From Geovibrio ferrireducens (lineage in GTDB: Bacteria; Chrysiogenota; Deferribacteres; Deferribacterales; Geovibrionaceae), in the NCBI RefSeq assembly GCF_026226615.1, contig NZ_JAJAPB010000004.1, forward strand, positions 1 to 64,000: a stretch of DNA of 64,000 bases, read 5' to 3'. Of the stretch, positions 162 to 62,593 are shown one piece after another. The stretch's first letter is position 1. Each line of letters opens with the position of its first letter. The position numbers were made by a program, and so were the translations under genes. A model generated the notes under the pieces. It saw only the letters and a program-made list of their open reading frames with translations, did no database searches and was not told the origin of the DNA.

Positions 162-1232
162 TTATAATCCGGCTTCCTTTAATCTCTCTGCCTGATCAAA
201 GGAGAACAGAGCATCCAAAATGTCGTCCATTTCGCCTTCCATGAAACGGTCGAGGCTGTATGAGGTTACGTTGATGCGGTGGTCTGTCACCCTGTTCTGA
301 GGGTAGTTGTATGTTCTGATCCTTTCGCTTCTGTCGCCGGAGCCCACCTGAAGCTTTCTGCTTTCGGCGCGCTCGTCAGCCTGTTTGCGGATCTCTATCT
401 CAAGTATCTTTGATTTAAGGTGCTTAAGCGCCTTCTCACGGTTTTTTATCTGGCTTCTCTCATCCTGACAGGTGACCACAATCCCTGTGGGGATATGGGT
501 CATACGCACGGCTGAGTCAGTGGTGTTTACGTGCTGCCCGCCTGCACCGCTGGCACGGTACACATCCACCTTGATGTCTGTCGGGTTCACATCTATCTCC
601 ACATCCTCCGCCTCAGGCAGAACCGCCACAGTGCACGCTGATGTGTGTATGCGTCCGCCGGACTCGGTTTCGGGGATACGCTGAACCCTGTGACCGCCGG
701 ATTCATACTTCAGGCGGCTGTAAGCGCCCTTACCCTTCACCATGAAGACTATCTCCTTGTAACCGCCCACGCCTGTCTCATTGAAATCGATTATTTCGGT
801 CTTCCAGCGCTGGTTTTCCGCATAGCGGGTGTACATCCTGTAAAGCGCAGCAGAGAAAAGCGAAGCCTCATCCCCGCCCGTTCCGGCACGGACTTCCACA
901 TATATGTTTTTATCATCGTAAGGATCTTTCTTAACGAGAAGAAGCTTAAGCTCCTCACCCAAGGTTTCCAGTTTTTCCCTGCCTTCTTCAATCTCCATCT
1001 CCGCAAGCTCACGCAGATCAGCATCATTTGAAGTTTCAAGAATGCTCTTAGCCTCAGCTATCGAAGTCTTAACACCCTTGTACTCCTCATACTTTTCCAC
1101 AACTCCGCGAAGCTCGGAATGCTCTTTGGCAAGCTTCTGAAACGCTTTGGGATCCTTCGCCGCCGCAGGGTCATTTACCTTGCGCGTAAGATCTTCATAC
1201 CTGATGACTACTTCTTCCAGTTTGTCGAACAT
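162..1232 (-). CDS. prfA: Peptide chain release factor 1
   Basis: Recognises UAA and UAG stop codons and triggers peptidyl-tRNA hydrolysis on the ribosome. The 356-aa length is normal for RF1. Visible are the N-terminal helical domain, the anticodon-like tripeptide region with PET (E. coli has PAT) just before RIHTSACTVAVLPE, and the catalytic GGQ loop (SGAGGQHVN) near residue 230, whose glutamine is normally methylated by PrmC. It is last in the rho-rpmE-thyX-DUF1385-prfA block. The final ten codons and stop are duplicated at 1-55 beyond a hairpin element, so prfA is separated from whatever followed it. Identification is secure. Confidence 0.98.
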   Translation of the reverse strand: MFDKLEEVVIRYEDLTRKVNDPAAAKDPKAFQKLAKEHSELRGVVEKYEEYKGVKTSIAEAKSILETSNDADLRELAEMEIEEGREKLETLGEELKLLLVKKDPYDDKNIYVEVRAGTGGDEASLFSAALYRMYTRYAENQRWKTEIIDFNETGVGGYKEIVFMVKGKGAYSRLKYESGGHRVQRIPETESGGRIHTSACTVAVLPEAEDVEIDVNPTDIKVDVYRASGAGGQHVNTTDSAVRMTHIPTGIVVTCQDERSQIKNREKALKHLKSKILEIEIRKQADERAESRKLQVGSGDRSERIRTYNYPQNRVTDHRINVTSYSLDRFMEGEMDDILDALFSFDQAERLKEAGL

Positions 1233-3378: not shown

Positions 3379-3472
3379 ATGCAAAAACCAGCGTCCTGCG
3401 GTTTTTGCATACACGCTCGCGCCGAAACAAGTTCGGCTTCGCTGAGCACGGCGCGGTTTCTTCCTGAAACCG
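3379..3472 (+). repeat. Modular hairpin element, copy B (upstream of rpmE)
   Basis: Hairpin 1 at 3379-3410 has 11-bp arms (ATGCAAAAACC/GGTTTTTGCAT), a bulged base, inner GCG/TGC and loop TCC. The conserved linker lies at 3411-3423, hairpin 2 (CCGAA/TTCGG) follows, then the core and hairpin 3 at 3454-3472 (CGGTTT...AAACCG). Arm sequences are unrelated to those of copy A but pair in the same places. A further core fragment (GCGCACGGCCTGCA) lies at about 3501-3515. It is antisense to rho and rpmE. Confidence 0.8.
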
Positions 3473-9343: not shown

Positions 9344-9395
9344 AAACCCCTTCAAAAATTTTTAACTGCTTCGCATGTCTGATTTACTGATTAAA

Positions 9396-9475
9396 ATTTC
9401 CGTCCATGGAAATCAGAAATTCACCAACAAAACTCCCGAACCAACGGGCAGCAGCGTTGACGATGCAGGCATATC
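9396..9475 (-). repeat. Echo copy of the methyltransferase 3' end
   Basis: Eighty bases match 9561-9640 with five differences. On the minus strand both encode the same last 20 residues (DMPASSTLLPVGSGVLLVNF) and stop; all five substitutions, in four codons, are synonymous (GGC/GGA, GTA/GTT, CTT/TTG, TCA/TCG). The copy includes the short palindrome that follows the stop. A second direct repeat of 24 bases links 9378-9401 and 9474-9497. Confidence 0.9.
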
Positions 9476-9483
9476 TGATTTAC

Positions 9484-9578
9484 TGATTAAAATTTCCTTC
9501 AGTGGAAATTTTAATACACGCTCGCGCCGTGGTAAACACGGCTTCGCTGCGCACGGCGGGATTTCCGTCCATGGAAAT
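9484..9578 (+). repeat. Modular hairpin element, copy C (downstream of methyltransferase gene)
   Basis: Hairpin 1 has 12-bp arms (ATTAAAATTTCC/GGAAATTTTAAT) around TTCAGT; this copy lacks the TCC-type inner loop and looks like a variant of hairpin 3. It is followed by the conserved linker, hairpin 2 (CCGTG/CACGG around GTAAA), the core at about 9541-9559 and hairpin 3 (ATTTCC/GGAAAT around GTCCAT). It is antisense to the neighbouring gene and immediately 3' of it, as in the other copies. Confidence 0.8.
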
Positions 9579-10204
9579 CAGAAATTCACCAAAAGTACGC
9601 CCGAACCAACGGGCAGCAGCGTTGATGATGCAGGCATATCATTTTTTATTTCCTCGATGAAGCTGAGGAGTTCGTCGCGGCCTTGGCGGTATTTTCGGGG
9701 GACTTCCGCTGTTTCCATTGCGAGCATGCCGAAGAGGAGCACGTCATCGAAAATGACGAGTCCGCCTTTGTTGACTCTGGTTTTAACAGTCTGCCACATC
9801 AGCGGGTAGATCCGTTTTACGGAGTCGATGAACACCATATCGTAGTTATCGTTTGTCCGGTTCAGGTATGTAAATGCTGATTCGTTTATGAATTCCACAT
9901 TTTCCAGTTCGATGCACAGGGTTTTCGCCACAGCAATTCGGTTTGGGTTATGGTCTATGCCGGTTATTTTCGCCTTCGGGCAGCCCTGTTTGATATAGGT
10001 TGTGGATGTGCCTATTCCGCTGCCTATTTCGAGTACGGAGGCGGGTTTCAGCACAGATGCCAGCAGGCGGAGCAGCTCCCCTGTTTCCGGTTCCACGGAA
10101 GGGACATCGTGTTTTTTGGCATAGTCGTGCATGTCTTCATTTTTCGCCCTTACGGTGGAGCGTATGTATTCGAGAATACCGGGGATTAGTATATCATTTC
10201 TCAT
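9578..10204 (-). CDS. O-methyltransferase family 3 protein
   Basis: A 208-aa class I SAM-dependent methyltransferase of the family that includes caffeoyl-CoA O-methyltransferase-like proteins. The SAM-binding motif VLEIGSGIGTSTTY (about 60-73) and the metal/substrate acidic motif MVFIDSVK (about 120) are visible. The substrate is unknown. It directly follows the motE-like gene without a gap and so is the last gene of the flagellar operon, though nothing else ties it to motility. Its last 20 codons are echoed downstream at 9396-9475 beyond a hairpin element. Confidence 0.85.
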   Translation of the reverse strand: MRNDILIPGILEYIRSTVRAKNEDMHDYAKKHDVPSVEPETGELLRLLASVLKPASVLEIGSGIGTSTTYIKQGCPKAKITGIDHNPNRIAVAKTLCIELENVEFINESAFTYLNRTNDNYDMVFIDSVKRIYPLMWQTVKTRVNKGGLVIFDDVLLFGMLAMETAEVPRKYRQGRDELLSFIEEIKNDMPASSTLLPVGSGVLLVNF

Positions 10205-16286: not shown

Positions 16287-16349
16287 TTTCAGTGTCTCCC
16301 TAACTGAATATATAGTATATCAGGGGTATTTTACAACCTTTATCTAACT

Positions 16350-16508
16350 TTATAAGAACAATCCGCGCGTCCTGCCGGATTGTTCTACACGCTCGCGCCG
16401 TGGTGAACACGGCTTCGCTTCGCACGGCGCGGTTCCTTCCATGGAACCGTTTGGGGTTCCACGTCTTTTGCTTTCCTTATAAGAACAATCCGCGCGTCCT
16501 GCCGGATT
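16350..16508 (+). repeat. Modular hairpin element, copy D, with 32-base flanking duplication
   Basis: Element at 16355-16448: hairpin 1 (16355-16386) with 11-bp arms AGAACAATCCG/CGGATTGTTCT, bulged C, inner GCG/TGC and loop TCC; linker at 16387-16399; hairpin 2 (CCGTG/CACGG around GTGAA); core; hairpin 3 (GGTTCC/GGAACC, 16431-16448). A 32-base stretch including most of hairpin 1 (16350-16381) is repeated exactly at 16477-16508, 127 bases away. It lies 3' of flgC, antisense to it; I find no echo of the flgC coding end. Confidence 0.85.
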
Positions 16509-31618: not shown

Positions 31619-31677
31619 GGGTAAATCAGTACATCCTGTCTGATTTACCCACACGCTCGCGCCGTGACGAAGCTCAC
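31619..31677 (+). repeat. Modular hairpin element, partial copy E
   Basis: Hairpin 1 (31619-31650) has 11-bp arms GGGTAAATCAG/CTGATTTACCC, a bulged T, inner ACA/TGT and loop TCC. The conserved linker follows at 31651-31663, then a short hairpin 2 (GTGA/TCAC, 31664-31677). The core and hairpin 3 are replaced by the tandem array that begins at 31679. It is antisense to the AEC transporter gene on its right. Confidence 0.8.
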
Positions 31678-31678
31678 T

Positions 31679-32291
31679 GTCATTGCGAACTTTAGTGAAG
31701 CAATCTCTAAGTATTAACAACACCATCACACCCCCGCAAAGCGGCAAGGAGACAAACACAGCTTAAGACTGCCGCGTCGCGCTGCTCCTCGCAGTGACGC
31801 AAACTACTGCCATTGCGAACTTTAGTGAAGCAATCTCTAAGTATTAACAGCACCCTCATACCCCCGCAAAGCGGCAAGAAGACAAACACAACTTAAGACT
31901 GCCGCGTCGCGCTGCTCCTCGCAGTGACGCAAACTACTGTCATTGCGAACTTTAGTGAAGCAATCTCTGAATATTAAAGCCACATCCTCATACCCCCGCA
32001 AAGCGGAAGGCAAAGCGGCAAGGAGACAATCACAGCTTGAGACTGCCGCATCGCGCTGCTCCCCGCCGTGACGAAGCTCACTGTCATTGCGAACATCAGT
32101 GAAGCAATCTCTAAGTATTAATACCTCATCCTCATAATCTTCGCAAAGCGGCAAGGAGACAAACACAGCTTGAGACTGCCGTGTCGTGCGACTCCCCGCA
32201 GTGACGAAGCTCACTGTCATTGCGAACGTCAGTGAAGCAATCTCTAAGTATTAATACCGCACCCTCATACCCCCGCAAAGCGGAAGGCAAA
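31679..32291 (+). repeat. Tandem array of about 130-bp units
   Basis: Five units start with G(T/C)CATTGCGAAC at 31679, 31809, 31939, 32083 and 32216 (periods 130, 130, 144, 133). Each contains GTGAAGCAATCTCT, then CCCCCGCAAAGCGG, then an inverted GC-rich tail with GCAGTGACG. The CCCCCGCAAAGCGG part is an echo of the 3' end of the AEC gene: 31986-32014 equals 32263-32291 over 29 bases, including the stop codon. The last unit therefore runs into the coding end of that gene. No gene is seen in 31612-32264. Confidence 0.9.
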
Positions 32292-33209
32292 ACCCAGCCA
32301 AAGCGGCATGGAGATGAGCGCCGCTGCCGTGGTGAAAACTATCACAGCGGAAGTCACCCTTGATTCACCCATATAATACTTCACCACGGCGAGGTTCATC
32401 ATCCCCGCAGGCATGGCGGACTGAGCTGCGAGTATAATCTTGAGCCCCCTGTCGTTCACGGCGTATTTTGCTGTAAGCAGGAACAGAAAAGCCATTCCGA
32501 CCATACGCAGCAGGATGCCCGCCACGCCTATCTTCACTGTTCCGCCGAGGCTTGAGCCGCGAAGCCCCTCACCCAAAGCCAGCCCGCTTATGAACAGACC
32601 CAATGGCATAGTGAGAAATGATATGACATCAAGCGCACTCCCCGCAGCACCGCTGAACGGTTCGGGTGAGAAAACAGAATTAAACGCCACAGACAGAAAC
32701 AGCGCATAGAACGGCGTACTCGCGGCAAGCCTTATAATTCCCGCTCTGTAAGAGCCGGTGAGAACGACGATCCCCGCTGTCCAGTATATGAAGTCTATGC
32801 CGAAGTTAAAAAGCAGAAGCTGCCCCGCCGCGTCCCTGCCGAACAGATGCGCAACAACAGGCAGCGTAAAAAAGCCGTAGTTGTAAACCCCTATTGTAAA
32901 AGCGAAAGCCCGTCTCTCTTTCGACTCCCTCAGCCCTATGAACGGAGCCAGAAAATATGCCGCGGCAAAGCCGGAAGCAACGGAGAGCATTCCCCACAGC
33001 GGAAGGAAGACGGAGGAGGTTATATCCCTGAGATTTTCATTGCCTGTTATGAAGTTAACCACAAGGCACGGGAAAAAGAAGTGTATGAACAGGCGGAAAA
33101 GGAATTTATCAGCCTGAGGGGGCAGAGCGAAACCGCGCTTTAATACGAACCCCCCGGCGAATACGCCGAAATACGGCATGACTGTTTTAAAAATGTCTAT
33201 GTAGTTCAA
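32265..33209 (-). CDS. AEC (auxin efflux carrier) family transporter
   Basis: A 314-aa integral membrane protein with about ten hydrophobic segments in two halves, typical of the AEC family. The family includes malate/malonate and auxin carriers; the substrate here is unknown. It starts 4 bases after the DUF523 gene and forms a three-gene unit with it and the cysteine-rich protein. Its last codons (FRFAGV) lie within the last unit of the repeat array, and the 3' end is echoed in the upstream units. Confidence 0.85.
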   Translation of the reverse strand: MNYIDIFKTVMPYFGVFAGGFVLKRGFALPPQADKFLFRLFIHFFFPCLVVNFITGNENLRDITSSVFLPLWGMLSVASGFAAAYFLAPFIGLRESKERRAFAFTIGVYNYGFFTLPVVAHLFGRDAAGQLLLFNFGIDFIYWTAGIVVLTGSYRAGIIRLAASTPFYALFLSVAFNSVFSPEPFSGAAGSALDVISFLTMPLGLFISGLALGEGLRGSSLGGTVKIGVAGILLRMVGMAFLFLLTAKYAVNDRGLKIILAAQSAMPAGMMNLAVVKYYMGESRVTSAVIVFTTAAALISMPLWLGFAFRFAGV

Positions 33210-61414: not shown

Positions 61415-62593
61415 TTACAGTTTATTAGTATAAGCGCTCAGCGCCCACCACTGATTGCCGTGCGCACCCTGACGAATCTCAAGCACCTTCGTATGGTTGT
61501 AAGGTACCCCGATAACCACTCCGTTCGGAGCAAGCACACATCCGAACCATTTGCCCGAACCGCTGAAACTTCCTGTAAGCTTTGCGGTATTCACTAACGG
61601 ATCAATAACAAGCACAGAGCCGGCATCGTAAGGGACACAATATATCCTTCCATCCGGAGCAAGAACACCGCCGAAGTACTTTGCAGAGCCGCTAAAACTT
61701 CCGATAAACTCTGTAGTGCCATTTGTCGGATCAATCACAAGAATCTCTGAAGCAGAGCCCGGTACACAATATATCTTTCCGTTCGGAGCAAGAGCACATC
61801 CGTACCACTTTGAAGAACCGATGAAACTGCCGATAAGCTCGGCGGAGTTGTCTGTCGGGTCTATAACCAAAATTTGTGCTGAGTTCAGCGGTGCACAATA
61901 TATTCTCCCGTTCGGCGCTAAGGCTCCTCCGAACCACTTTGACCCGCCTACCGCAAAACTGCCGATGAGTTCCGTAGTGTTATCTGTAGGGTCAATGGTG
62001 AGTATCTGCGGGTAATCGTAAGGTACACAGTATATCTTCCCGTTCGGTGCAAGAACAGCACCGGCCCATTTTTTTGCACCTGTGAAACCCCCTATTAACA
62101 CTGTGGTGTTATCTGCGGGGTCTATAACAAGTACAGAATCAGCATTGAATGGAGGGCAATATATCTTTCCGTTCGGTGCAAGCACTCCGCCCCTCCACTT
62201 TGCAGAACCGCTGAAACTGCCAATAAGCTCTGTAGTGTTACCTGAGGAGTCTATAACAAGTACAGAATTGGCATTGTAAGGAGGGCAATATATCTTTCCG
62301 TTCGGTGCAAGCACACCGCCTCCCCATTTTCCTGTTCCGCTCAGATTCCCGAACAGCAGTCCGCCGCCCAATGCTCCCGCAGGATCTGTTGATGCGTAAC
62401 CTTCAAGGGGATTGGAGTACGGCGTGTTCCCTGCCGCCGCAACACCATCCAGATTAACCTTCAGTCTGCCCGACTGACTGTCAAAAACAAGATTCAGCAC
62501 CTCATCCTCTGTTTTATATTTTGCCTTAAGACGCTGATCAGCAGAATCAAAAACGCTGTTCAGTATCTCAGCGGATGTTTTTCTCTTCCCCAT
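61415..62593 (-). CDS. Phage tail protein with seven propeller repeats
   Basis: A 392-aa protein. The first 50 residues resemble an adaptor repeated twice (ILNSVFD...RLKAKY, then LNLVFD...RLKVNL). Residues about 83-380 consist of seven 43-residue repeats, each with LAPNGKIYC (varied) then a VLVIDP-NTTELIGSF-GS-KW unit; seven repeats suggest a seven-bladed beta-propeller. The last 15 residues differ. In a phage tail this could bind a receptor. The DNA has matching 129-base repeats. It lies in a module with an endolysin. Confidence 0.75.
   Translation of the reverse strand: MGKRKTSAEILNSVFDSADQRLKAKYKTEDEVLNLVFDSQSGRLKVNLDGVAAAGNTPYSNPLEGYASTDPAGALGGGLLFGNLSGTGKWGGGVLAPNGKIYCPPYNANSVLVIDSSGNTTELIGSFSGSAKWRGGVLAPNGKIYCPPFNADSVLVIDPADNTTVLIGGFTGAKKWAGAVLAPNGKIYCVPYDYPQILTIDPTDNTTELIGSFAVGGSKWFGGALAPNGRIYCAPLNSAQILVIDPTDNSAELIGSFIGSSKWYGCALAPNGKIYCVPGSASEILVIDPTNGTTEFIGSFSGSAKYFGGVLAPDGRIYCVPYDAGSVLVIDPLVNTAKLTGSFSGSGKWFGCVLAPNGVVIGVPYNHTKVLEIRQGAHGNQWWALSAYTNKL

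Follow-up and report, generated by a model that had tools for sequence, protein, structure and literature searches.

What history could leave, beyond the stop codon of a gene, a second copy of the gene's own end that differs from it at silent sites only? The question is raised by an O-methyltransferase gene in the window, that is, the whole stretch of 64,000 nucleotides of Geovibrio ferrireducens DNA that we analyzed (contig NZ_JAJAPB010000004.1 of assembly GCF_026226615.1, positions 1 to 64,000). The gene (9,578-10,204, minus strand, as are all features of this locus; an ORF of 208 aa) has a duplicated 3′ end: the segments 9,396-9,475 and 9,561-9,640 form a direct repeat of 80 nt with 94% identity (five differences), a similarity that far exceeds chance expectation. 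The match to the Pfam domain Methyltransf_3 (E = 2.2e-18, residues 36-206) ends only two residues before the C-terminus of the 208-aa product, which makes the upstream copy the genuine gene end. This gene-end copy of the unit we call T (9,578-9,640) comprises the last 20 codons plus TGA and starts at a T|GA junction; the downstream copy, the echo (9,413-9,475), encodes the identical 20 amino acids and the stop. An initial reading of the sequence alone had described the 80-bp copies as differing at five positions in four codons, all synonymous, over the last 20 codons, and our alignment confirmed this (gene end/echo: TCA/TCG, GGC/GGA, GTA/GTT, and CTT/TTG; the stop is kept). Taken alone, the silent differences at this locus are suggestive only (P ∼0.03 for four out of four silent codons, where 0.40 would be expected for an echo in free drift and a gene that accepts silent changes only); a count over every locus of this kind in the genus makes the silent pattern decisive.

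The stretch between the gene end and its echo is a non-coding element with three hairpins (hereafter E). Immediately past the stop codon lies the hairpin hp2 (9,561-9,578; ATTTCC-loop-GGAAAT), at a position that is repeated in other units, followed by a core (9,521-9,556; CTCGCGCC-N11-GGCTTCGCTNCGCACGG in plus-strand reading) that is conserved among the family copies and contains an inner hairpin, hp0, with compensatory stem variation; then come the hairpin hp1 (9,486-9,515; ATTAAAATTTCC-loop-GGAAATTTTAAT, the inverted pair I2) and the 3′ terminus of the element (9,476-9,485), which abuts the echo and has the consensus ∼ATTATAAAGACA before T over 34 junctions. A second unit has left a remnant past the echo (9,373-9,412), in which hp2 is fused to hp1 and the terminus, with the core lost (repeat D2, 9,373-9,413 versus 9,469-9,509). 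A known structured RNA family was ruled out, as a search of Rfam with this locus gave nothing above the gathering score (the best match, Ocean-V, reached 24.2 bits versus the 75 required).

We compared three genomes of the genus: the draft genome from which the window is taken (G000), G001, and the one-contig genome G002. E is present at the methyltransferase gene in all three, with ∼85% identity at the locus and no empty site at that gene. Allowing up to three mismatches, the core occurs in 95 copies in G000, in 76 and 220 copies in the other two genomes, and in none of 43 other genomes of the order; an exact core scan of the genomes of 84,980 species, from which the window's own or very near records may have been left out, gave LUZY01 as the sole match in the Deferribacterales. 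The element is ∼100 bp long and frequently found in tandem arrays, which in G002 comprise as many as six head-to-tail units; their period is ∼90-180 bp, depending on the array, and the units contain hairpins, core, and T only. Most arrays (119 of 155) are placed after a gene end and share the orientation of the gene. Pairing in the inner hairpin is preserved through change: 73 variants have a mean of 3.40 out of 4 Watson-Crick pairs, versus 1.46 when the partners are shuffled. A search of the non-subscription literature gave no published description of this repeat.

Further core copies in the window are located at 3,416-3,451 and 16,392-16,427 (both minus strand), the latter accompanied by hp1-like repeats at 16,338-16,381 and 16,465-16,508. 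Two unrelated loci in G000 (L294 and L296) have an identical extra hairpin block of ∼50 bp within the core (AAAACCGCC...GGCGGTTT...), which marks either an extended form of the element or one insertion nested in another. Flanking hairpins of a similar kind enclose a different core in a second, longer type of element, observed at L277, L086, and L090; at L277 (G002) this type likewise produces an echo of the gene end, its T being ∼41 nt long. Two other tandem repeats of ∼130 bp are found in the window: one at 31,640-32,303 (84% identity), which is composed of another dispersed repeat (GTCATTGCGAAC...GAAGCAATCTC) and begins beside a partial element core, and one at 61,482-62,357 (67% identity), where the minus strand is open and repetitive, with a motif like LAPNGKIYCVP...VIDPTDNTTELIGSF.

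The arrangement at the methyltransferase gene recurs. Across the three genomes, ∼30 arrays hold a copy of the coding end of the adjacent gene, in the order gene end T, hairpin, conserved core, hairpin, and T again, so that the repeating unit is T plus E and the layouts are T-E-T or (T-E)n. The junction joins the terminus of E to a site 9-65 bases 5′ of the stop codon, and in most cases the 3′ limit of T is the stop codon or shortly past it. A T|GA site marks the start of T at 15 of the 34 junctions (background 0.024, P = 6e-16); on the gene side GA is mostly preceded by T, and at the element end by A. Orthologous sites without the element were found for proC, g054, g089, g092, pheS, and prfA, and therefore indicate insertions rather than features common to the whole genus. 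The boundaries of T at one and the same gene may also differ between species (g106 in G000 versus G001, and g051 in G000 versus G002). We dropped the idea that the upstream arm of hp2 is always target DNA; it fits the flagellin-like gene, g051 in G000, and g092 in G001, but misfits proC, g066, and g092 in G002. At L160 (G002) an array lies between pheS-like and pheT-like genes, and its outermost echo also forms the leader of the downstream gene. In two arrays (L131 in G002 and L243 in G001) it is the start of a gene that is duplicated, not its end; the upstream copy of the start, which is dead, has two silent changes in L131 and one amino-acid change in L243.

A second example is located at the very start of the window, where prfA (162-1,232, minus strand) has its gene-end copy at 141-195, a core at 104-139, and an echo at 1-55 that is 100% identical to the gene-end copy over 55 bp and is truncated by the end of the contig; the outermost prfA echo in G000 lies on another contig and has two silent codon differences. 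The contig start of the window thus falls in an element array, and other G000 contigs also end at such arrays (C2, C3, C4, C5, C6, C13, C14, and C26), where array lengths are not readable. Collapsed repeats in the assembly might be suspected from these contig ends, but we consider an artefact extremely improbable, since the arrangement is also found in G001 and the arrays are intact in the single contig of G002.

We compared gene ends with their outermost echoes. In these pairs 34 codons differ silently and three change an amino acid; six stop codons are silently swapped, no outermost echo has a frameshift, and the two length differences are both in frame (+3 in g106, -3 in pheS). Among the 14 informative outermost loci, 11 are purely silent, and 36 of the 44 base differences are at third codon positions. 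With an echo free to drift and a gene tolerating silent changes only, 37-44% of the changes would be expected to be silent; against such a neutrally drifting echo the bias has a P of 1e-9 to 3e-12. Leaving out the methyltransferase, the counts are still 23 silent versus 3 non-silent; the codons are partly non-independent, as three loci are one gene in three species. The non-silent changes in echoes come from the flagellin-like gene in two genomes and from one other locus. The silent and non-silent counts were curated by hand from the alignments of 33 copy pairs, whose presence in the DNA was checked by script; in the pheS pair the 3-bp indel was removed, which leaves the echo sequence in both rows, so that only the in-frame indel is informative there. 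At g054 in G000 as many as four of nine codons differ silently, and none non-silently. Within T, the differences are shifted to the 3′ part (mean relative position 0.59, KS P = 0.014).

One explanation would be a simple tandem duplication that happened once, in place, the echo then drifting as non-coding DNA. The internal copies of the longer arrays look as this predicts: the (T-E)n units are near-identical to the gene end and have few differences of both kinds (11 silent versus 4 non-silent, and one frameshift). They resemble ordinary tandem duplicates within one lineage in which drift has begun, and for them tandem duplication is likely. An example of such decay is the internal echo at L171 (G002), with a 2-bp frameshift plus other changes. 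The prfA echo in the window, without differences, would also fit. For the outermost copies, the 34 silent versus three non-silent codons, the in-frame indels, and the preserved stops (P ∼1e-9 or less) reject neutral decay, a rejection that does not extend to the internal copies; as an account of the echoes overall, tandem duplication is very unlikely. The bias that the sequence-only reading had proposed to look for in other echoes is thus a property of the outermost ones, and its view that the echo is not a neutrally decaying copy holds for them: they differ from the gene ends as one functional allele of a gene end does from another, and the non-silent and frameshift differences at neutral proportions that would speak against this were looked for and not found.

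Which of the two copies is older can be asked by comparison with the orthologous gene ends of relatives. Over the differing codons of the genus, the gene copy matches the relatives at 26, the echo at 23, and neither at 14; by this measure either copy resembles a functional allele about as well as the other. At the methyltransferase gene, three of the echo's four differing codons (TCG, GTT, and TTG) are those that both relatives use, so the echo looks like the older allele. Distant members of the family, which carry the methyltransferase at 36-52% protein identity, were excluded from codon polarity, and codon sharing among the three genomes is mixed, a donor strain being outside the sample. Given the unit remnant behind it, the methyltransferase echo may once have been a unit of an array and not the untouched resident end. 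The clearest case of replacement would be g092 in G002, where the echo ends in GGA TAG and then continues with the downstream sequence as at the empty site of G000, and the gene ends in GGG TAA. In G000, the gene-end codons of prfA and proC are nearer to G002 than those of their outermost echoes are.

The echo could also be held coding-like within one lineage, by direct selection or by constant exchange, for example if arrays contract and expand and echoes regularly serve as the gene end. The methyltransferase copies of G000, G001, and G002 are more alike within a species than between species; therefore homogenisation or repeated replacement does also happen, and the skew of the differences toward the 3′ part of T is compatible with exchange. 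The four silent codons among nine at g054, however, lack a source in a single lineage unless the echo is selected, and we saw no mechanism by which an echo beyond the stop codon would be expressed. We regard this explanation as unlikely, if less so than tandem duplication.

We favor, with some confidence, replacement between strains, in which an incoming T-E supplies the new gene end and the echo is the resident T, moved downstream. Judging from the sequences, each copy probably served until recently as the gene end of a separate lineage, and the echo is the displaced one; the two would differ almost only silently because both were selected as coding ends in those lineages, and, being coding while they diverged, they would have been located in different chromosomes. 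In the proposed series of steps, E would sit directly past the stop, with its terminus joined upstream within the coding end, often at T|GA; the E-bearing gene end of one strain would recombine into the gene copy of another strain; and the incoming T would take over as the working end, leaving the resident T behind E as the echo. The two alternatives of the sequence-only reading, that the downstream copy was the real gene end until recently or that the element arrived with a foreign allele, would then largely be one event: the echo would be the former end, and the present end would have come with the element.

A narrower form of this history is that homologous recombination alone moves established T-E-T arrays, E now being immobile and the T|GA joints being relics or products of microhomology. 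It needs no enzyme, T can act as a homology arm, and the 3′ skew of the differences fits a crossover inside T. However, new joints have formed repeatedly, as the boundaries of T at g106 and g051 differ between species, and the T on the gene side is left unexplained by microhomology, because the element end has A before GA. We hold this narrower explanation to be possible, if somewhat doubtful. The T|GA preference and the differing boundaries speak for repeated sequence-specific joining. The two alleles would have been brought together by between-strain recombination, and the T|GA junction would be created by a sequence-specific nick or join. E may itself promote the transfer, or it may only ride on homologous recombination through T.

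The units themselves encode no integrase or recombinase, and no endonuclease ORF lies between the two C-termini, where there are only hairpins and core. The Y1_Tnp profile (PF01797), which matched control genomes and four further genomes of the family, had no match in any of the three genomes; an origin from a REP/RAYT system was ruled out because this domain is absent from the genus's three genomes. RT-driven copying (retron, DGR, or group II) was rejected as well, since the RT domain (PF00078) is absent from two of the three carriers, G000 and G002, and has one match in G001. Neither domain search gave an enzyme for the element.

Gene ends replaced by an insertion are known from two settings. 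The prophage e14 in icd of E. coli K-12 brings a replacement 3′ end of 165 bp with 12 base exchanges and two conservative amino-acid changes (PMC11148124). As in icd, the Geovibrio insertions are in coding genes, the element-borne end restores the gene, the original end is displaced downstream (the direction being judged from one or two relatives per locus), and the differences are mostly silent; e14, however, is a prophage that encodes an integrase, occupies one site only, and does not form tandem arrays, as opposed to a non-coding repeat of ∼100 bp in dozens of genes. The suggestion that an integrating element replaces the 3′ end of its host gene thus stands for the replacement and not for a conventional integrating element, given the short, non-coding units in tandem arrays with no integrase, Y1, or RT linked to them. 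The mORFs of fungal mitochondria (atp6, atp9, cox2, and nad3) place a foreign C-terminus upstream and leave the native one downstream, keeping the protein sequence, and the C-terminal differences of the atp6 mORF from a relative were reported as all synonymous (PMC3630166). Here too, a foreign gene end would replace the native one with the protein preserved, but each mORF is a solitary organellar insertion that codes for a homing endonuclease, whereas our elements encode nothing and form a bacterial family with tandem arrays. Because integrase and endonuclease are lacking, the element falls outside both kinds.

In size and number, the family resembles REP sequences and BIMEs, short hairpins in hundreds of copies that are mostly intergenic, form modular arrays, and occur in narrow groups (PMC2817692). 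It shares with them the many short palindromic, mostly intergenic copies, and differs from those with a RAYT in having no Y1/RAYT domain, in units that run head-to-tail and do not alternate, and in including the coding end of the neighboring gene. Double-hairpin and other repetitive hairpin elements in the mitochondria of fungi and sponges are likewise short, hairpin-built, and mobile-looking. The likeness in short hairpin make-up is one of description only, and to our knowledge gene-end echoes are not a defining feature of the mitochondrial double-hairpin elements.

Taken further, replacement between strains would make this a genus-specific hairpin element mobilised in trans by a putative nuclease that nicks T|GA, copies or carries the last codons, enters essential genes such as prfA and pheS harmlessly, and spreads foreign gene ends between strains; we offer this tentatively, as transfer is a matter that we infer from three genomes of the genus. 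If true, it would be a bacterial counterpart of the elements that replace gene ends, with its own genes absent and dozens of loci instead of one, and it would be tolerated inside essential genes because it supplies a spare end. A search for the putative enzyme could start from the T|GA junction and from the hairpins, whose stems vary in a compensatory manner. The displaced echoes would record former gene-end alleles beside the current ones, so that one genome could suffice to trace earlier recombination between strains.
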